Assembly: GCA_016125495.1 (NCBI GenBank)
Contig: WGLQ01000023.1
Span: 49,972-113,971, forward strand
Origin: Hyphomicrobiales bacterium
GTDB lineage: Bacteria; Pseudomonadota; Alphaproteobacteria; Rhizobiales; RI-29
DNA length: 64,000 nt
Reading direction: 5' to 3'
Shown piece after piece: positions 52,508-62,479 of the stretch. The notes under the pieces were generated by a model. That model worked only from the letters and a program-made list of their open reading frames with translations, was not told the DNA's origin and made no database searches. The position numbers were made by a program, and so were the translations under genes. Numbering within the stretch: position 1 is the stretch's first letter; the number at the start of each line of letters is the position of its first letter.

Positions 52508-53044
52508 TCAGTCGCCGTCACCCCGCCAGCTGCCACGGCCCCAGCCGCCATGGCGGCGGCGGTGCTCGCCGCGTCCCATCCATCCCGCGAGCATGCGGGC
52601 AACGAGGCGCTTTTCCTGCGGCTGCAATTGCCCGGCGACGCGCACGACGACGGGCAGCATCCGCTCGCGGGCCGCGAGTTCCTTGGCCGTGGCGTCCGCG
52701 ACGGCGGCACGGATGGCCGCTTCGTCTACGTTCGCAGCCTCGAGGCGGGTGATCGCACCGCGCCAGGCCTCGCGGATCTCGTCACGCATCGGGCGCAGTT
52801 CCTGACGGGCCGCGCGGAAGGTCTCGCGCAGCGCGTCGCGGCGCTCACGCGGGATATCGCGAAGCTCGCGCATCGCGGACCAGCCGCCGGGACCGCCGTG
52901 GCCACGTACGAAATGACCGGCGACGGCGCCAACGATCAACAAGTTGATCGCCAGCGAGACGATCGCCACCACCCAGAGCCAGCGTCGGCGCGGCGGGGAG
53001 GCGGGCGAAGGGGTGCCAGCAGGGCCGTTGTTCTGGTCGCTCAT
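52508..53044 (-). CDS. periplasmic heavy-metal sensor-like protein
   Basis: The 178-residue protein has one membrane helix (about residues 22-44) and a periplasmic helical domain of the CnrR/Spy-related metal-resistance family: WSAMRELRDIPRERRDALRETF, RDEIREAWRGAITRLEAANVDE, and a C-terminal LQPQEKRLVARMLAGW resembling the LTxxQ repeat. The tail has HRRRHGGWGRG, possibly metal-binding. Its ATG overlaps the stop of the upstream putative anti-sigma gene (ATGA), so translation is coupled. It is the last gene of the ECF sigma cluster. Confidence 0.8.
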   Translation of the reverse strand: MSDQNNGPAGTPSPASPPRRRWLWVVAIVSLAINLLIVGAVAGHFVRGHGGPGGWSAMRELRDIPRERRDALRETFRAARQELRPMRDEIREAWRGAITRLEAANVDEAAIRAAVADATAKELAARERMLPVVVRVAGQLQPQEKRLVARMLAGWMGRGEHRRRHGGWGRGSWRGDGD

Positions 53045-53607
53045 ATCAGGTCCTCGCTCTGGCCGACCTCACCGAAGAGGCCGAAGAAATCATCCTCCAT
53101 GTCGACCACGCTGCCCGCGACCACCACGCCGATCGGCTCGAGGGCGCGTTCGGTGAGGCCGGTCGCGCCGACCGCGAAGCCAGCAACCAGCGAGGCCGCC
53201 AGCAGTGCCGCCGCCTGCCACGTTCGCCGCGTGCTCGGGAACTCCCGGCGTTCGCGACCGGGTCGGCGAACATCCTGGCCGGCGCCGACGGGCCGGTCGC
53301 GCTGGAGACGGCGCATGGAGAGATCGACGACAGTGCCGCCGATGGCGGCCTCGTTGCCGTCGGCCCGGATGCGCGCGAGCGCACCGGCGACGACCCGGCT
53401 GGCGACAGCCTCGTCCGGCTCCGTCGCTTCGCCGGTCGCCAGAAGGTCATCGAACGCGCGGGCCTCGGCCAACAGCCGCTGGGCCTCGGGATCATCCGAC
53501 AGGAGCGCTTCGAGCGCTTTCGCCTCGCCGGCCGGCCAACGCCCCGCGTCGGCCCCGTAGACGTCGAGCACCCTGACCAGCCGGTCAATTCCATCTCGCC
53601 GTGACAT
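53041..53607 (-). CDS. putative membrane anti-sigma factor
   Basis: The 188-residue protein has an acidic and helical N-terminal cytoplasmic region, a single membrane helix at about residues 131-152 (WQAAALLAASLVAGFAVGATGL) and a short periplasmic tail. It lacks the HxxxCxxC zinc motif of the common ZAS anti-sigma domain. The role is inferred from its place directly downstream of the ECF sigma gene and its N-in topology. The start at 53607 follows GGAG. It overlaps the metal-sensor gene by 4 bp. Confidence 0.6.
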   Translation of the reverse strand: MSRRDGIDRLVRVLDVYGADAGRWPAGEAKALEALLSDDPEAQRLLAEARAFDDLLATGEATEPDEAVASRVVAGALARIRADGNEAAIGGTVVDLSMRRLQRDRPVGAGQDVRRPGRERREFPSTRRTWQAAALLAASLVAGFAVGATGLTERALEPIGVVVAGSVVDMEDDFFGLFGEVGQSEDLI

Positions 53608-53671
53608 CGTCGTGCTCTCCATCGCTCTCACCGGTTCCCTCGAAGGGACCGCAAGGCGTCACTCCCGCTCG

Positions 53672-54343
53672 TCAAATCAGATCCCGCCAGGCATGCGACA
53701 AGCGCTGCTTCAGGGACCGGCGGGCCCTCGAGAGGAGGGATTCGACAGCCTCCTCGGAAATCTCCATCGTCGCCGCCGTCTCGCGCAGGCTCAGCTCCTC
53801 GAAGTGGAAGAGCTGCAGCGCGGTGCGCTGACGCTCGGGCAGTTCAGCGAGCGCCGCCGCAACGGCACTGCGACGCTCGGTACCCGCCATCGCGACACCT
53901 TGACCCGGCTCGACGGTGAGCTGATCGAGCGCCGCATCGTCGACGGGCCGGCGCCGCCGGATCGCGTCGAGTGCGAGGTTGGCGGTGACCCGGTTGAGCC
54001 AGGGCGCCAGACCCAACGGCCCGATCTCGATCGAGCCGGCGCTGCGCCAAAGGCGGATCAACGCCTCCTGGGCGATGTCCTCGGCCTCGGCCGGCTCGCC
54101 GACGATCCGCGTCGCAATGCGCAGCAGCCGGCGCACATGGTGAGCGGCGAGGACCTCGAAGTCGCGCTCGCTGCCGCTGGCAACGGCGGCGACAAGCTCA
54201 CGATCGTTGCCCCCCGTCGGCGCCATCACCGCTCCGTCCAACCCGATTGCGCTCTGCGCGCACCCTTCGGCGCGTGCGGCATCCGTCGTGCGGATAGCAT
54301 CTTCCGGCAGGTTGCGTCTGGCCTGCAATGCCGACATCGACAT
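53672..54343 (-). CDS. ECF-type RNA polymerase sigma factor
   Basis: This is a sigma-70 factor of the extracytoplasmic-function group with region 2 (RDFEVLAAHHVRRLLRIATR, EAEDIAQEALIRLWR) and region 4 (LAELPERQRTALQLFHFEEL, ISEEAVESLLSRARRSLKQRL). It lacks regions 1 and 3, as expected. An ATG at 54226, preceded by GGAG, would give a 184-residue protein starting at the conserved part and may be the true start. The genes around it (EF-hand protein upstream; putative anti-sigma and metal sensor downstream) imply an envelope-stress or metal regulon. Confidence 0.92.
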   Translation of the reverse strand: MSMSALQARRNLPEDAIRTTDAARAEGCAQSAIGLDGAVMAPTGGNDRELVAAVASGSERDFEVLAAHHVRRLLRIATRIVGEPAEAEDIAQEALIRLWRSAGSIEIGPLGLAPWLNRVTANLALDAIRRRRPVDDAALDQLTVEPGQGVAMAGTERRSAVAAALAELPERQRTALQLFHFEELSLRETAATMEISEEAVESLLSRARRSLKQRLSHAWRDLI

Positions 54344-54425
54344 GCCCCTTCTGCCCCGTTCGCCGATCCGCGTGGCGGGTTCACCCCGCCACGCGGCCGT
54401 CCATCAACCCTGAAGGATGATCGAC

Positions 54426-55124
54426 TTACTGGTTGGTCGTGGTCTCGCCGTCGTCCAGCTTCTCGGTCTCGGGCTCACCGACTTCACCGTCCTGCTGACC
54501 GCCACGGCGCTCCATGAAGCGGCGCATCCGGGGCGGCAGTTCGTCGCCCGAGATTTCGCCATCGTCGTTGAGGTCGTTCCAGCTGAAGCGCTCCTGGGCG
54601 AGGCGGTTGAACTCATCCATCGTCACTTTGCCGTCACGATCCGCATCGAAGCGCCGGAACATGCGCTCGATGCGCCTGTTCATGCGTTCCTCCATGCGGG
54701 CGCGCATCGAGGCCTCGACCTCGCTCCGTTCGACGATGCCGTCGCTGTTGGTGTCGAAGCGCTGGAAGTGGGGCAGGCGCCGTTCGTTCACCTCGTCGAA
54801 GGTGATCTTGCCATCGCGATTGGCATCGAGCCGGGCGAAGCCGCCACCGTGGCGACCGCCATGTCGGCCGCCGTGGCGGCCCTCTCCGCGGCGCCCACCA
54901 CGCGAGCCGCGCGCGTCACCATCCTCGTCGTCCCACTCGCCCATACCCATGCCCATGCCGCCACCGTCGTGGCTGCCGCGGCCGTGCCAGCCCATGCCCT
55001 GGCCGCCATGATGGCGACCCCAGCCACCGCGGTCGCGATCGGCGACGGCGTAGGTGGCTGCAAAGCCGGTTGCGAGGATCGTGGTTCCAGCCAGCGCTGC
55101 CAAAGCGACCTTTTTCCAAGACAT
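54426..55124 (-). CDS. secreted EF-hand calcium-binding protein
   Basis: The 232-residue exported protein has a signal peptide (about residues 1-28), then a Gly/His-rich segment (about 33-95), then four complete 12-residue EF-hand loops: DANRDGKITFDE (100-111), DTNSDGIVERSE (124-135), DADRDGKVTMDE (160-171) and DLNDDGEISGDE (184-195). Each has acidic residues at the expected positions 1, 3, 5 and 12. It should bind calcium in the periplasm; the Gly/His region could bind transition metals. AAGGAG supports the start. It precedes the ECF sigma gene on the same strand. Confidence 0.93.
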   Translation of the reverse strand: MSWKKVALAALAGTTILATGFAATYAVADRDRGGWGRHHGGQGMGWHGRGSHDGGGMGMGMGEWDDEDGDARGSRGGRRGEGRHGGRHGGRHGGGFARLDANRDGKITFDEVNERRLPHFQRFDTNSDGIVERSEVEASMRARMEERMNRRIERMFRRFDADRDGKVTMDEFNRLAQERFSWNDLNDDGEISGDELPPRMRRFMERRGGQQDGEVGEPETEKLDDGETTTNQ

Positions 55125-55300
55125 TTTGGTTTTCTCCTTGTTCGGGCCCGCTGTCCCGGCGGGGGACCGGGTTGGGGGGGTGTCGGGCCGTCTATGCCGA
55201 GAAAACGCGCCAGCTCGGGAAATCCGTCGCGGAAAAATTCAGCCCGCCGGCAAGGAGCGGACCGGCCCCGGACAGGCGCCGACGGAGCTGGGGCGCCCGC

Positions 55301-58231
55301 TCAGACGACGACGCGCTCGAAGAGATCGCAGACCGCCGACTGCATGGCCTCCAGACGCTCGGCGAGGGCGCCGAAATCGTCGCTCTCGCTGGTCTTGGCG
55401 AGCAGCGACTTGAGATCACTCGGCGCATCGGCCGGCACGAACGGACCGGAGATGCAGAGAGCCAGGATCTCCGAGACCGCAGCATAGAGCCGGGCCGCGT
55501 CGGCGCAGATGGCGGTGGCTCCGGCATCGAGCGCGCCGACTTCGCCGAGCCGCGCGATCGCCTTGGGCAGATTCGTGTGGAGCACGTCCGGATGGCGGGC
55601 GGCGGCCTCGAGCAGGGCGAACTGGACGATGAATTCGAGATCGACCTGGCCGCCGCGCACGGTCTTGATGTCCCAGATGCTGGTGCCACCCTTGTGGACC
55701 GCGATGCGCTCGCGCATCGCGCGCACGTCCTCGACCAGTTTGACGCGGTCGCGGGGGCGAAGCAGGGCCGCGCGAATGGCAGCCTCGACGGCGGAACGCA
55801 AGACCTCGCCGCCGCTCAGGACACGGGCACGCGTCAGTGCCATGTGCTCCCAGGTCCAGGCTTCGTCTCGCTGATAGGATTGAAAACTCGCGAGACGGGT
55901 GGCGATCGGACCGGAATTTCCGGACGGACGCAGGCGCATGTCGACTTCATAGAGCCTGCCTTCCGCGGTCGGTGACGTGACGGCACTGACGAGGCGCTGC
56001 GTGAAGCGCGCAAAATACTGGCCGCCAGGCAATGGCCTCGGTCCGTCCGAGGCGGCAGTCTCGCCCTCGTAGTCGTAGATGAGGATGAGATCGAGGTCGG
56101 AGGCCGCGGTCATTTCGTAGCCGCCCAGTTTTCCCATTCCGACCAGCGCGGCATCGCCACCCGGCAGAACGCCGTGCTGGCGCTCGAAATCCGCTCGCAC
56201 CGCCGACTGGAGCCGGTGCAGCAGGCGCGAGGCAAGTCGCGCATAGGCCAAGCCCGCCTCGATCGGGCTGACGACCCCGGAAAGCAGGCGCACGCCGATC
56301 AGGAAGGTCTGCTCGCTGGCGATGACGCGCGCCCGGTCGAGGGCATCCTGCAGGTCGCTCGACGCCGAAAAGCCGGCCTCGACGACGCGCTTGACCTCGT
56401 CGTCCGAGGGCAGCTGGCCGAAGAAGCCGGGATCGAGTACGGCCTCGAGAACGCGGCGGCGGCGGCTGAGGAGGGCCTGCAGGCGCGGGGCCGTTCCCAT
56501 GATCATCGCCAAGAGAGACAGAAGGGAGGGATTCGAGCGCAGGAGGCCGAAAAGCTGGATGCCGGCGGGCAATTCGGAGAGGAAGCGATCGAAGGCGGCG
56601 AGTGCTGCATCCGGCGCGGCGGTCTGACCCAAGGTCTCGATGAGCCGCGGCTGGAGCTCGGTCAGGCGTTCGCGGGCGCGGGCGCTGCGCATCGCCGGAT
56701 AACGCCCGAAATGCCAGCTCCGAACGGTCTGCCAGACGCCTTCCGGCTGGGTGAAGCCCATGCCGGTCAGGGTCTCGAGGGTCGCCGGGTCGGCGCTGTC
56801 GCCGACGAAGACGAGATTGCCCTTGCCGGTGGTCAACTCCGGGACGTCCTCGAAGAGGGCGGCATAGTGGTTCTGCACCGTCTCGAGATGGCGGCGCAAC
56901 GTGCTCGCGAATTCCTCCACGCTCGCAAAGCCGGAGAAGGCGGCCAGCCGGCGGAGGCGATCGGCATCGCTCGGAAGCACATGCGTCTGCTCGTCGGCAA
57001 CCATCTGGATGCGGTTCTCGACGTGACGCAGGAACCAATAAGTCTCCGTCAGCTCGCGACATGCCTCGGGCGTGATCCAGCCGCGCGCGGCAAGGCCCGA
57101 CAACGCCTCCACGGTGCGGCGCAGGCGCAGTTCCGGCTGGCGGCCGCCGGCGATGAGCTGCTGCGTCTGGGCGAAGAATTCGATCTCCCGGATGCCGCCT
57201 CGGCCGAGCTTGATGTTGTGGCCGGCAACGCGAATCTCGCTGAAGCCCTTGTTGGCGTGGATCTGGCGCTTCATGGCGTGGATGTCGGCGATGGCCGCAT
57301 AGTCGAGGTACTTGCGCCAGATGAAGGGCGCGAGCTGGGAGAGGAATGCCTCGCCCGCCTGCCGGTCGCCGGCAACGACGCGAGCCTTGATGAATGCCGC
57401 CCGCTCCCAGTTCTGGCCCTGGCCCTCGTAGTAGTTGAAGGCGGCGTCGGTGGTCATGACGACCTGGGTGGAGCCGGGGTCCGGGCGAAGCCTGAGGTCG
57501 GTGCGGAATACATAGCCGTCCGCCGTCTGGTCCTGCATGAGCTTGACGAGGAGGCGAACGAGGCGGACCAGGAAGACCTGCGGCTCGAGCCCGGGGCGAA
57601 GCGAGAGGCGGCCCGGCTCGTGGAAGATGACGAGGTCGATGTCGCTCGAATAGTTGAGCTCGCGGGCGCCGAGCTTGCCCATTCCGAGGATGAAAAACCC
57701 GCCGTGCGTATCGGCCGGCCCGGTGCTGTCCAGTACCTCGCCACGCTCGCGCGCCTGGCGAAAGAGGAAGGCGAGCGCGGCACCGAGAGAGCGCTCGGCG
57801 ACGTCTGAAAGCCGAGCCACGGTGAGGTCGGTGGAGTCGATGCCAGCGGCGTCGGCGAGCGCGATGGAAAACGCCATGGCCGACTTGTATTGGCGCAGCG
57901 CGCGCATCGCCTCGTTGATCGTGTTGGCCGCCGCCAGGGCGCTGACGACTTCCGCCGACCTCAGCTCGAAATATTCCCCCGGTGAGGTCGAAAGGAGGCG
58001 GGCGATCTCGGCGCCGGACCGGCGCGCGATGCCCGCGAGATAGGGCGACGCAGAGAGCACGCTCGCAAGCAGATCGCCAACCGGCGAAGCGGCGAGCGCT
58101 TCGCCAAATGCACCGTCCTGATGCTCAGCGGCAATGCGCATGACGAGATCGGCGAGATGGGCGCGGCCGGTCGCGCTGTCGTAAGCGGGCGGGGCGCTCG
58201 CCTCGAGCCACTGCGGGTGGATGGTCGCCAT
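55301..58231 (-). CDS. glnE: glutamine synthetase adenylyltransferase/deadenylase
   Basis: GlnE adds and removes AMP on glutamine synthetase in response to PII, setting its activity to nitrogen status. The 976-residue product is of normal length and has two nucleotidyltransferase domains. The N-terminal one has GMGKLGARELNYSSDIDL (about residues 183-200) and the C-terminal one has GMGKLGGYEMTAASDLDLIL (about residues 690-710), each with the paired acidic residues. GAGGCGAGC precedes the ATG at 58231. It is the last gene of the degP-regulator-kinase-glnE block. Confidence 0.96.
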   Translation of the reverse strand: MATIHPQWLEASAPPAYDSATGRAHLADLVMRIAAEHQDGAFGEALAASPVGDLLASVLSASPYLAGIARRSGAEIARLLSTSPGEYFELRSAEVVSALAAANTINEAMRALRQYKSAMAFSIALADAAGIDSTDLTVARLSDVAERSLGAALAFLFRQARERGEVLDSTGPADTHGGFFILGMGKLGARELNYSSDIDLVIFHEPGRLSLRPGLEPQVFLVRLVRLLVKLMQDQTADGYVFRTDLRLRPDPGSTQVVMTTDAAFNYYEGQGQNWERAAFIKARVVAGDRQAGEAFLSQLAPFIWRKYLDYAAIADIHAMKRQIHANKGFSEIRVAGHNIKLGRGGIREIEFFAQTQQLIAGGRQPELRLRRTVEALSGLAARGWITPEACRELTETYWFLRHVENRIQMVADEQTHVLPSDADRLRRLAAFSGFASVEEFASTLRRHLETVQNHYAALFEDVPELTTGKGNLVFVGDSADPATLETLTGMGFTQPEGVWQTVRSWHFGRYPAMRSARARERLTELQPRLIETLGQTAAPDAALAAFDRFLSELPAGIQLFGLLRSNPSLLSLLAMIMGTAPRLQALLSRRRRVLEAVLDPGFFGQLPSDDEVKRVVEAGFSASSDLQDALDRARVIASEQTFLIGVRLLSGVVSPIEAGLAYARLASRLLHRLQSAVRADFERQHGVLPGGDAALVGMGKLGGYEMTAASDLDLILIYDYEGETAASDGPRPLPGGQYFARFTQRLVSAVTSPTAEGRLYEVDMRLRPSGNSGPIATRLASFQSYQRDEAWTWEHMALTRARVLSGGEVLRSAVEAAIRAALLRPRDRVKLVEDVRAMRERIAVHKGGTSIWDIKTVRGGQVDLEFIVQFALLEAAARHPDVLHTNLPKAIARLGEVGALDAGATAICADAARLYAAVSEILALCISGPFVPADAPSDLKSLLAKTSESDDFGALAERLEAMQSAVCDLFERVVV

Positions 58232-58261: not shown

Positions 58262-59827
58262 TCATCCGACCTCGCCGAGAAGCTTCGGGCGAGCCTCTGG
58301 CGCCGTCGACGGACCCGGCGCGCTCACGGACGGCAGTGAAAGAACCGCGCGCAGTCCCGGCCGGTTGTCCTCGAGTGTTATGCATCCCCCATGCATTCGC
58401 GCAACCGCCGCGACCAGCGAGAGACCGAGCCCGGTGCCGGGACGCGTGCGACTCGCCTCGAGGCGCACGAACCGTTTCAGCGCCCGCTCGCGGTCGGCGG
58501 CCGCAATACCGGGGCCGTTGTCGCTCACGACGATTTCGGCGTGCTCTCCGCGACGCCGCACCGAGAGGTCGACCTGGATCGGGGCCTGCTCATGATGGGG
58601 GGCATCGTTTTCGGCAAGGGCGGCATACTTGATGGCGTTGTCGAGGAGATTGGCGATCGCCTGGCTGACGAGCTGGCGGTCGGCCGCGACCTCGACGCCC
58701 GTATCCGCATCGACGCCGAGTGCGATCCGTGCCTCCTCGAAGGCCGGCTCGTAGAGTTCGGCGACCTCCCGCGCCACCTGGGCGACGTCGATCGGCTGGC
58801 GGCGATCGTCGCTCGCTGCGGCCTCGATCCGGGCAATGCTGAGAAGCGCATTGAAGGTGCGGATGAGTTCGTCCGCCTCACCGAGGGTGTCTTCGAGGGC
58901 GGCGCGGTAGGCGGCCGAGCCACGATCCTCGCGGAGTGCCTCCTCGACGGCGTTGCGGATGCGGGTCAAGGGGGTGCGCAGGTCGTGGGCGATGTTGTCC
59001 GAGACCTCCTGCATGGCCTGCAAGAGCTGCTCGATGCGCTCGAGCATCACATTGAGGCTTTCCGCCAAGCGGTCGAGTTCGTCGCCGGTGCCCTGCAATG
59101 GCAGGCGATCGGACAGCCGGCCCGCCATGATGCGCCTGCCGGTGAGAGCCATGGCATCGATGCGCCCGAGGATGTGGCGGGCGATCAAATAGGCGGCGGC
59201 CATGCCGACCAGCATGATGGTCGCAAAGCCGGCCAGCAACAGGAGACGGAGGCGGTCGATCAGGAGCCGCTGCTCCTCGATATCGCGGGCGACGACGAGG
59301 ACCAGACCCGAGGGCACCTCGAGGGCAACGCCGAAGGCGAGGCGGCGGGCCGCGTCGGCTTCACGCCGATAGGTGAATGTCGCGCCGCCACCGCCAATTT
59401 CGAGGCCATCGGGCGGCGCGGTCAGATTGCCCGCAATGACGGCGCCCGTGGCGTCGAGCAGCAGGTAGCGCCCATCGCCCTGCGGGACGCTGCGCCCGGA
59501 GATCACGTCGGCAAGCAGCGTGACGCCGCCGACCCGGTATTGTTCGCGCAGGCCGCGCACCTCGCTGGCGACGGTCTGACGCAATTGCGCGGTGAGGAGA
59601 TCGCCGAGCTGCCAGAAGAGCGCCGCAACGACGACCGAGGCGACCAGCAGGAGTGCCAGCAGATAACCGAGCGCGAGGCGGAACGAGGTGGCGCCGAGCA
59701 GCCCGGAGCCGCCGCGTGAACCGACGGTGGCCATGGCGACCGGACCGAGGGTGCCCGGCGACCGGCCAGGGTCTGGCGGCTCACCGGCCGCGAGGCGAGA
59801 CGCCCCTCTTTGTGCAGCTTGTTTCAT
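58262..59827 (-). CDS. two-component sensor histidine kinase
   Basis: The 521-residue kinase has two membrane helices (about residues 48-70 and 191-213), a periplasmic sensing region, a HAMP domain after the second helix, a HisKA domain with phospho-acceptor His281 in SDNIAHDLRTPLTRI, and an ATPase domain with N-box ANLLDNAIKYA and G-boxes VSDNGPGIA and GTGLGLSLV. It lies 59 bp downstream of a cognate OmpR-type regulator. Similar pairs sit between degP and glnE in other Hyphomicrobiales; the stimulus is unknown. Confidence 0.93.
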   Translation of the reverse strand: MKQAAQRGASRLAAGEPPDPGRSPGTLGPVAMATVGSRGGSGLLGATSFRLALGYLLALLLVASVVVAALFWQLGDLLTAQLRQTVASEVRGLREQYRVGGVTLLADVISGRSVPQGDGRYLLLDATGAVIAGNLTAPPDGLEIGGGGATFTYRREADAARRLAFGVALEVPSGLVLVVARDIEEQRLLIDRLRLLLLAGFATIMLVGMAAAYLIARHILGRIDAMALTGRRIMAGRLSDRLPLQGTGDELDRLAESLNVMLERIEQLLQAMQEVSDNIAHDLRTPLTRIRNAVEEALREDRGSAAYRAALEDTLGEADELIRTFNALLSIARIEAAASDDRRQPIDVAQVAREVAELYEPAFEEARIALGVDADTGVEVAADRQLVSQAIANLLDNAIKYAALAENDAPHHEQAPIQVDLSVRRRGEHAEIVVSDNGPGIAAADRERALKRFVRLEASRTRPGTGLGLSLVAAVARMHGGCITLEDNRPGLRAVLSLPSVSAPGPSTAPEARPKLLGEVG

Positions 59828-59886: not shown

Positions 59887-60564
59887 CTAGCCGCCGTCGC
59901 CGACCATATAGCCGACGCCGCGCACGGTGTGCAGCAACGGACGCGAGAAAGACCGGTCGATCTTGGAGCGCAGGCGCGAAATATGGACGTCGATGACATT
60001 GGTCTGAGGATCGAAATGATAGTCCCAGACGTGCTCGAGCAGCATGGTTCGCGTCACCACCTGACCGGCGTGCTTCATCAGATACTCGAGCAGCCGATAC
60101 TCGCGCGGCAGAAGCGCGATAGGCTCGCCGGCCCGCGTCACCTTGTGGGCGAGGCGATCGAGGACGAGATCGCCGACGGTCAGAGTCGTGCTCGCCTCCT
60201 CGGGCTGCGCGCGCCGGGTCAGCGCCTCGACCCGGGCGAGCAGTTCGCTGAAGGCGTAGGGCTTGGCGAGATAGTCGTCGCCGCCGGCACGCAACCCTTT
60301 GACGCGGTCGTCCACGTCACCGAGCGCGCTCAATATGAGAACCGGCGTGCGGATCGACTGCTCGCGGAGCCGGCGCACGATAGCCAGTCCATCGAGACGA
60401 GGCAGCATGCGGTCGACGATGAGGACGTCGAAGCCCGCCTCCTGGGCCAGCAGCAGGCCGGTTTCCCCGTCGTTGGCGACCTCGGCGACATGGCCGGCCT
60501 CGCGCAGCGCCTTGTGAAGGTACTGGGCCGCTTCCCGGTCGTCCTCGATGACCAGTATCCGCAT
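59887..60564 (-). CDS. OmpR-family response regulator
   Basis: The 225-residue regulator has a receiver domain with acidic pocket IEDD and phospho-acceptor Asp51 in LIVDRMLPRLDG, Thr/Ser and Lys switch residues (ILSALGDVDD, LAKPYAFSE), and a winged-helix effector (LLPREYRLLEYLMKHAGQVV and VIDVHISRLRSKID). The ATG at 60564 begins the domain. It sits between the DegP-type gene and its sensor kinase, all on the minus strand. Confidence 0.95.
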   Translation of the reverse strand: MRILVIEDDREAAQYLHKALREAGHVAEVANDGETGLLLAQEAGFDVLIVDRMLPRLDGLAIVRRLREQSIRTPVLILSALGDVDDRVKGLRAGGDDYLAKPYAFSELLARVEALTRRAQPEEASTTLTVGDLVLDRLAHKVTRAGEPIALLPREYRLLEYLMKHAGQVVTRTMLLEHVWDYHFDPQTNVIDVHISRLRSKIDRSFSRPLLHTVRGVGYMVGDGG

Positions 60565-60775
60565 TTTCAACCTTCGAACAGACCACGCGTTGGGGCGGCG
60601 GGCCGAATGTCGGGCCCGGGGTGCCCGGCACAGGGAAAGTGGGCCGGCCGGCGCGAGGCGACAAGTGCCCGGAGCGAATCCCGCATCAACTCGGATCGGG
60701 CAGACGCGGCGAGGGGCGGATCGTGCCACGACGCTCCGCCCCTCGCATTGGGTGCTTCAGTTCAGTTCGGCATAC

Positions 60776-62341
60776 TCACGACTTGCCGAGCGGCAGTGCG
60801 ACGAAGCGCTCGCGGTTGCCGGACTTGATCCGAAGCAGAACCGCCCGACGCCCGCGCTTGCCGGCTTCCTGGACGCCTTCGACCACGTCCGCGGGTTCGG
60901 CAACGGCCGTGCCGGCCACCTCGAGGATGATGTCGCCAACCTGCAGGCCCTTTTCAGCGGCCGTCGAGTCCGGGCTGACCTTGGAGACCAGGACACCGGG
61001 TTCGCCATCGCTACCCTCGGGCAGTCGGGCGAGCGCAAGGCCCAGATCCTCGATCTCGCGGGTCGCGCCGGCCGTGGGGCCGGCCGAGCCATCGTCCTCC
61101 TCGAGGCTCGCCAGTTCCTGGTTGCCCGGGAACGTGCCGAGTTCGATGGCGACCTTCTCCTCGCGGCCGTCGCGATAGACGGTGACGTCGACGACGGTGC
61201 CGGGACGCATTTCGGCGACCTTGCGTGCGAGATCGCGCGAGTCGGCGATCGGGTCGCCGTTGACCGCGACGATCGCATCACCGATGCGGATGTCCGACTT
61301 GGAGGCTGGGCCATTGCGGGTGATCTTGGACACAAGAGCGCCCTTGGGCTCGTCCATGCCGAGGCTGGCGGCGAGATCCTCGTTGAGCGACTGGATGTGA
61401 ACACCGAGCCAACCGCGACGGATGGAGCCGTTGTCCTTGAGTTCCTGGATGACCTGGGCGGCCAGGCTGGCGGGAACCGCGAAAGCGATGCCGACATTGC
61501 CGCCCGAGGGGCTGTAGATCGCCGTGTTCACGCCGATCACGCGACCGGTCATGTCGAAGGTCGGACCGCCCGAGTTGCCACGGTTCACGGCCGCGTCCAC
61601 CTGGATGTAGTCGTAGGGGCCGGAACCGATGTCGCGGCTCTTGGCCGAAACGATGCCGGCGGTCACCGTACCACCGAGACCGAACGGATTGCCGACGGCG
61701 ATCACCCAGTCCCCCACCCGCACGTCCTGGGTGGAGAATTCGACGAAGTTGAAGGTGCGCTCGGCGTCGATCTTGAGAAGCGCGAGATCGGTGCGTGGAT
61801 CGGCGCCGATCAGGCGCGCGTCGTACTGCTGGCGCGCGTCGATGCTCACCTTGATCTTGTCGGCGCCGTCGATCACGTGGTTGTTCGTGACCACGTAGCC
61901 GTCGGCCGAGATGATGAAGCCGGAACCCTGCGAGGCCGTGCGACGCGGCGGGAACGGGCCATCGGGCTGGTTGCCCTCACCGAATCGCTTGAAGAACTCG
62001 TTGAAGGGGTGATCCTCGGGCAGGCCCGGAATGCTCGGCGCGCCGCGCCCGCCACCGCGTTCGGATTGCTTCGGCGTCTTGCCGCCGCTCGTGACGTCGA
62101 CGCTGACGACGGCACCCTGCACCTGCTCGACGAGGTCGGCAAAGCTCGCGGGTGCGCCGACAAACGGCGTGATTCGCCCCGAATCCTGCGCCAGAGCCGG
62201 GCGAATTGGCTCGAAAGTTGCGATGGTGCCGGCACCGACGATCCCGGCCACGATCGCGGCGGCGGCAGTTCCACGGACCAAGATCCGGCGCAATTTCATG
62301 GTCGGGCTCAATGTCTGCGAAAGATTACTTGATGGCGTCAT
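60776..62341 (-). CDS. DegP/HtrA-type periplasmic serine protease
   Basis: This is an envelope quality-control protease/chaperone. A Sec leader (about residues 15-51, ending ALA) precedes an S1 protease domain with the triad His155 in VVTNNHVIDG, Asp185 in RTDLALLK and Ser257 in VNRGNSGGPTF, then two PDZ domains (RRGWLGVHIQSL onward, and a second starting near LGLALARLPEGSDGEPGVL). A Gly/Arg/Pro-rich linker sits before the protease core. The start at 62341 is chosen over an upstream ATG at 62371. The gene heads the regulator-kinase-glnE group. Confidence 0.94.
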   Translation of the reverse strand: MTPSSNLSQTLSPTMKLRRILVRGTAAAAIVAGIVGAGTIATFEPIRPALAQDSGRITPFVGAPASFADLVEQVQGAVVSVDVTSGGKTPKQSERGGGRGAPSIPGLPEDHPFNEFFKRFGEGNQPDGPFPPRRTASQGSGFIISADGYVVTNNHVIDGADKIKVSIDARQQYDARLIGADPRTDLALLKIDAERTFNFVEFSTQDVRVGDWVIAVGNPFGLGGTVTAGIVSAKSRDIGSGPYDYIQVDAAVNRGNSGGPTFDMTGRVIGVNTAIYSPSGGNVGIAFAVPASLAAQVIQELKDNGSIRRGWLGVHIQSLNEDLAASLGMDEPKGALVSKITRNGPASKSDIRIGDAIVAVNGDPIADSRDLARKVAEMRPGTVVDVTVYRDGREEKVAIELGTFPGNQELASLEEDDGSAGPTAGATREIEDLGLALARLPEGSDGEPGVLVSKVSPDSTAAEKGLQVGDIILEVAGTAVAEPADVVEGVQEAGKRGRRAVLLRIKSGNRERFVALPLGKS

Positions 62342-62479
62342 GCCTTGGACCTTTCCGTTCATAAGGGTCATCCACGAGCGTGACGGTGGGTATAGGAACA
62401 GGCGCCTTACAGCGCTCTTTCCGGACGATTAAAATTTGGTAAGGTGTACTAACGGGGATATGGGGCGAGGGCTCGAACG

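Follow-up and report, generated by a model that had tools for sequence, protein, structure and literature searches.

Which partners hold the extracytoplasmic function (ECF) sigma factor encoded between an EF-hand protein and two membrane proteins in a Hyphomicrobiales bacterium, and does the EF-hand protein act as sensor or as output of the system? The locus lies in a stretch of 64,000 nucleotides (contig WGLQ01000023.1, positions 49,972 to 113,971 of the forward strand; hereafter, the window). We consider it probable, from sequence comparison and structure models, that the locus encodes a membrane-gated switch, in which the single-pass membrane protein would hold the sigma factor, a protein with a predicted Spy/CnrX fold would relay stress, and the freed sigma factor would drive the EF-hand-led operon together with envelope genes. 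The four genes keep their order in many alphaproteobacteria, and a common promoter motif lies in front of the EF-hand gene and is associated with genomes that carry the module.

Conservation of the four-gene block

The first-pass annotation of the window had described four minus-strand open reading frames (ORFs) between 52508 and 55124. All four are present, transcribed in the order EF-hand protein, ECF sigma factor, single-pass protein and PF13801 protein, and a candidate promoter falls just outside that interval. All features listed here are on the minus strand.

55204..55230, minus: ECF-type promoter GCGACGGATTTCCCGAGCTGGCGCGTT, 79 nt 5' of the EF-hand ATG (expectation-maximization motif, shuffled controls, match count in the window)
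54426..55124, minus: secreted-type four-EF-hand protein, first gene of the block (Pfam EF-hand_5, 6e-19; AAGGAG upstream)
53672..54343, minus: ECF sigma factor (ORF opens at 54343, likely start 54226; Pfam regions 2 and 4)
53041..53631, minus: predicted single-pass anti-sigma factor (likely start 53607 or 53622; alignments, AF2 model, fold search, charges)
52508..53044, minus: PF13801 membrane-anchored periplasmic protein with a predicted CnrX/Spy-like helical fold (Pfam, AF2 model, fold search)

The EF-hand protein (232 aa) has four EF hands, as had been proposed, with canonical loops at residues 100, 124, 160 and 184; its signal-type N-terminus and its Gly/His/Arg-rich stretch (residues ∼31–95) were recognized by eye. 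Lanmodulins are marked by a Pro at loop position 2 and by a loop spacing of 12–13 residues. This identity was rejected for the window protein, which reaches 41 bits against a cut-off of 135, has loops without Pro and loop starts that are 24, 36 and 24 residues apart. The sigma factor matches Sigma70_r2 (1.2e-15) and r4_2 (1.5e-14). Start sites of the sigma and anti-sigma genes were judged from alignments and upstream sequence, and the true start of the sigma gene is likely the ATG at 54226, because most of the listed relatives align from about residue 43–50. The ATGA overlap of the last two genes was confirmed at 53041–53044, and the same overlap is found in 37 of 60 anti-sigma/sensor pairs.

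To follow the block in other genomes, public genomes were scanned with the window sigma factor, and the best 80 of 439 loci were kept. The synteny table holds 108 sigma loci, of which 55, including our own, combine both membrane-protein genes with 600 nt or more of sequence 5' of the sigma gene; five further loci with both partners and shorter upstream DNA were set aside from the EF-hand count. Anti-sigma and sensor genes were assigned with profiles built from those same loci, and EF-hand genes by applying the loop pattern to six-frame ORFs, an ORF with at least two loops that ends within 500 nt of the sigma gene being counted as a neighbour. An EF-hand ORF stands beside the sigma gene in 44 of the 55 loci, in 4 of the 12 remaining loci with one partner only, and in 3 of the 36 public loci that lack both partners, where 193, 531 and 1327 nt were left 3' of the sigma gene.

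The single-pass protein is found in 46 of 150 genomes (own included) and, with the Phenylobacterium copy as query, in 67 of 385 genomes of a class-wide sample. Thirty loci of the class sample fetched through the anti-sigma gene (own included) carry the sigma gene in 30 cases, the PF13801 sensor gene in 29 and the EF-hand gene in 19. One Caulobacter-like genus belongs to the family that holds the closest sigma relatives of the Phenylobacterium locus in the sample. There, 26 of 41 genomes give a sigma match. The complete set of four genes, with a GACGGA-N-CGT site close to where the EF-hand gene begins, is present at 25 of the 26 best loci, and the contig of the remaining one is short. Four genomes of this genus (L255–L258) also have a second, related sigma gene, a weaker match, with a short anti-sigma-like ORF and no PF13801 or EF-hand gene. 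Co-occurrence of the four genes in related genomes, on which the first-pass annotation had staked its proposal, is thus found, and the block is conserved across alphaproteobacteria beyond what chance would give. Among the entries listed in a search of open-licence literature, none dealt with this set of four genes.

The predicted anti-sigma factor and the predicted sensor

The single-pass protein (196 aa) is predicted to be the anti-sigma factor of the neighbouring sigma factor. Numbered from 53607, it has an N-terminal helical bundle with a YGAD..RWP motif, a transmembrane helix at residues ∼129–148 and an acidic periplasmic tail. The AF2 model gives the N-terminus as a confident helical bundle, whose nearest matches in a fold search are the class-I anti-sigma factors MucA, RsiW and RslA, all at low Z; CnrY, which represents class II, is not among the matches listed, an absence that excludes nothing. 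No Pfam family scored above its cut-off for this protein, and a profile search against solved structures gave no credible match. Zinc-binding class-I anti-sigma factors are recognized by the motif HxxxCxxC, and zinc-less members of class I, such as MucA, are already known. The window protein contains no His and no Cys anywhere, so that a zinc-binding factor was rejected and the zinc-less anti-sigma suggested by the first-pass annotation is supported. The periplasmic tail of the anti-sigma factor is negative in 50 of 50 cases, and the sensor domain is positive in 40 of 50. Neither membrane protein has a PHROGs match, and the idea that the pair came from a phage was rejected.

The last gene of the block encodes a protein of 178 aa that belongs to PF13801 (Metal_resist), with 70.4 bits against a Pfam cut-off of 29.2. 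Its AF2 model and the fold search point to the CnrX/ZraP/CpxP/Spy fold; a single-sequence search against solved structures yielded nothing useful. Metal ligands of CnrX include His residues. The window sensor has neither His nor Cys in residues 50–160, and a folded domain of this composition makes CnrX-type Ni/Co sensing unlikely. Moreover, no His column is conserved across 38 aligned sensor sequences, and on these two grounds the window sensor is taken to have no metal site of the CnrX type. Direct transition-metal sensing in the manner of CnrX is therefore not upheld; the first-pass annotation had implied a response to divalent metal in the periplasm. At least 6 of the 38 aligned sensors carry a His near the place of the C-terminal site of CnrX, and some relatives may bind metal. 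According to the available part of PMC7689651, CnrX requires Met123; the equivalent stretch in the window sensor, with equivalence read from alignment ranges, is VVRVAG. The label of 'periplasmic heavy metal sensor' given to these proteins is thus not backed here by CnrX-type ligands.

A shared promoter motif and the genes behind it

The promoter motif was searched by expectation-maximization for two blocks with no preset consensus, in the EF-hand upstream regions of 41 loci and the window (n = 42), six loci with <200 nt upstream having been dropped. The search recovered CGACGGA-N14/15-NCGT, which scores at least 10 in 31 of the 42 regions, with a log-likelihood of 178 versus 62–77 in four shuffled sets. 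The window contains one match, versus 0.13 expected, and the whole genome, with a looser pattern, 10 matches versus 3 with a reversed control.

We then compared the genomes with and without the module, as defined by the search with the single-pass protein. Counted with the strict pattern, sites and control matches number 75 and 35 in the 46 module genomes versus 48 and 80 in the 104 others (Fisher p 2.6e-6, all genomes being taken as independent with no correction for kinship); p becomes 0.015 once one site per matching module genome is removed. At least one strict site is present in 32 of 46 module genomes versus 34 of 104 genomes without the module.

Genes behind the sites were examined for a subset of the 123 matches. 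For module genomes, 55 distinct sites were considered; they came from 17 selected genomes, of which 16 had a match, and from another five with returned loci, and the EF-hand site of the window was excluded. Genomes without the module contributed 14 sites. An ORF of at least 100 codons starting within 260 nt follows 52 of the 55 sites. These 52 ORFs include nine HlyD-type adaptors from five genera, eight EF-hand proteins, five sigma factors (four ECF and one RpoH-like by eye) and two LTXXQ proteins; nine of them (five EF-hand and four ECF) stand behind the module's own promoters, some of which were used in finding the motif. In genomes without the module, 10 ORFs follow the 14 sites, and none is an adaptor, EF-hand, sigma or LTXXQ gene.

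In our own genome, strict sites precede the EF-hand gene, a resistance-nodulation-division (RND) adaptor-permease operon and a DUF2852 gene, and the other two look like chance matches. The RND permease scores higher with multidrug models than with CusA/CzcA models, both below cut-off. Among the 30 best orthologues of the adaptor, a strict site is found in 3 of 11 from module genomes (own included) versus 0 of 19 from the others, a modest difference (p 0.04). The site of the DUF2852 gene, a possible further target, lies 158 nt 5' of it (L123, G000:C25:33821-33847). Two ABC-transporter ATPase genes, orthologue-like by eye, start 168 nt after a motif, one in our genome with the looser pattern (L116) and one in a relative, G018 (L156). 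In G032, a response regulator gene (Response_reg and Trans_reg_C) has the motif 20 nt upstream (L160, G032:C705), which hints at a link between the sigma factor and a two-component system.

EF-hand genes preceded by the same site also occur away from the sigma gene, on other contigs of G018, G002 and G032 (L128, L154 and L158); as these are draft genomes, 'another contig' is as far as their location can be given. In G032, the sigma gene has no EF-hand neighbour (L085) and the site stands before the sigma gene itself (L159), while the EF-hand gene lies elsewhere behind the same promoter, as expected of an output. Since the EF-hand gene is also the first of the block after the shared promoter, it is best read as output and not as primary sensor, which agrees with one of the roles that the first-pass annotation had offered for it; the co-sensor role that it also named is possible.

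Candidate mechanism, alternatives and relation to known systems

In the mechanism that we favour, the anti-sigma factor would bind the neighbouring sigma factor, and the basic periplasmic domain of the sensor would pair with the acidic periplasmic tail of the anti-sigma factor. Envelope or cation stress in the periplasm may break this hold, and the freed sigma factor, presumed to read CGACGGA-N14/15-NCGT promoters, would then switch on its own operon, which the EF-hand gene leads, as well as a few envelope genes. The EF-hand product may buffer or use periplasmic Ca2+ and might feed back. Conserved pairing of the two genes, the anti-sigma-like predicted fold and the CnrX/Spy-like predicted fold support control of the sigma factor by two membrane proteins, as first proposed. 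One result weighs against the regulon outlined here: with the loosest pattern, adaptor orthologues show no difference between module and non-module genomes, and the RND targets look weaker. A bolder and rather doubtful version holds that, across the class, the grip between the basic sensor hairpin and the acidic anti-sigma tail is set by periplasmic divalent cations, Ca2+ above all. Falling Ca2+ or rising cationic stress would then free the sigma factor, and the cell would make RND efflux and Spy-like chaperones together with EF-hand proteins that refill the periplasmic store of Ca2+.

Other readings assign the signal elsewhere. The EF-hand protein might itself be the primary sensor, its Ca2+-loaded or Ca2+-free form docking on the PF13801/anti-sigma pair and gating the sigma factor. 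Its gene is adjacent and conserved, and the available part of PMC13171946 reports a response of Caulobacter cabp and sigV to calcium limitation and an effect of CaBP on sigV expression. However, the neighbour is missing in 11 of the 55 loci, in G032 the module lacks an adjacent EF-hand gene and one with the same promoter is found on a different contig, and LTXXQ genes follow this promoter in two genomes, so that we consider a sensor role unlikely. A true CnrYXH homologue, with the PF13801 protein as the receptor of Ni, Co, Cu or Zn and metal efflux under the control of the sigma factor, would account for the layout and for an RND pump among the likely targets; the His- and Cys-free domain, the lack of a conserved His column, the VVRVAG stretch in place of Met123 and the multidrug-like scores of the permease speak against it and leave it little chance.

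It could finally be argued that the sigma operon owes its EF-hand neighbour to ancestral gene order and that the two are regulated separately. The block does lie in an old neighbourhood, which includes the following genes outside the switch.

55301..58231, minus: glnE (NCBIfam, synteny), conserved upstream neighbour
58262-59827, minus: histidine kinase (NCBIfam), conserved neighbour in part of the relatives
59887-60729, minus: OmpR-type response regulator (named by eye), conserved neighbour in part of the relatives

In 8 of 35 public loci that contain both partners, the genes for the response regulator, the kinase and GlnE all lie upstream; several of the other loci do not extend far enough for a verdict. 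This speaks for a long-established chromosomal site and not a mobile island. Nevertheless, the EF-hand promoter carries the module's own motif, also found before the EF-hand genes that G018, G002 and G032 have on other contigs, and separate regulation seems highly improbable. The kinase resembles heavy-metal sensor kinases at a score below cut-off. A DegP-like protease (60776-62371, by eye) is encoded just upstream of the regulator, kinase and glnE genes, and pepN converges on the block from the other side.

The membrane-gated switch can be compared with several known systems. CnrYXH of Cupriavidus metallidurans likewise combines an ECF sigma factor, a single-pass anti-sigma factor (predicted in our case) and a membrane-anchored CnrX-fold protein, with an RND pump among the likely targets. 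However, the modelled N-terminus of the window's anti-sigma factor comes closest to class-I domains, at low Z, the sensor has no CnrX-like metal ligands and the block is led by an EF-hand gene in its old chromosomal neighbourhood. As the metal-ligand feature failed, the block was not classed as a CnrYXH member, and its best reading is a CnrYXH-like switch for envelope or cation stress with an EF-hand output. With the zinc-less class-I factors MucA and RseA, the window protein shares the predicted N-terminal helical bundle, a single transmembrane helix and the absence of a zinc motif; it differs by a very short acidic periplasmic tail and by having no credible sequence match among solved structures. 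The Azospirillum RpoE8 operon, likened here by its description in the available part of PMC12826043, also brings together a sigma factor, a hypothetical protein and a periplasmic heavy metal sensor, but the term 'EF-hand' is absent from the paper's text.

The closest parallel is found in Caulobacter vibrioides, whose periplasmic CaBP and SigV are induced by calcium limitation and acid (PMC13171946, 2026). According to the part of this paper available to us, SigV modulates cabp, the promoter of which, mapped by 5' rapid amplification of cDNA ends, reads GGAAA-13 nt-CGTTCA, and the membrane component of the circuit is reported as unknown. In both systems, the gene for a periplasmic EF-hand protein stands immediately 5' of that for an ECF sigma factor, and its promoter has the same shape; in the Caulobacter-like relative L246, GCGACGGAAA-N13-CGTTCA precedes the EF-hand gene. 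The published sigV promoter pattern, GGAAGCTTCG-N-GCTTCA, has a match in 14 of 249 genomes of one family and led nowhere. Whereas the paper names no anti-sigma factor or sensor, the window block has candidates for both directly 3' of the sigma gene. C. vibrioides gives a PF13801 match, and from its relatives the two partner genes would be expected at its own sigV locus. The CaBP-SigV circuit thus appears to be a relative of the window module, and the single-pass and PF13801 proteins are likely its missing membrane link.

Little is understood about how bacteria translate periplasmic Ca2+ into transcriptional responses. Our analysis names two candidate membrane-link genes, a promoter consensus and a predicted regulon, which would include RND efflux in part of the genomes. 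If the Ca2+-tuned version were true, the module would supply the signalling core that the Caulobacter CaBP-SigV circuit has so far lacked, and would represent a conserved calcium homeostat of bacteria. As the design is spread across alphaproteobacteria, it is testable by deleting the two genes.
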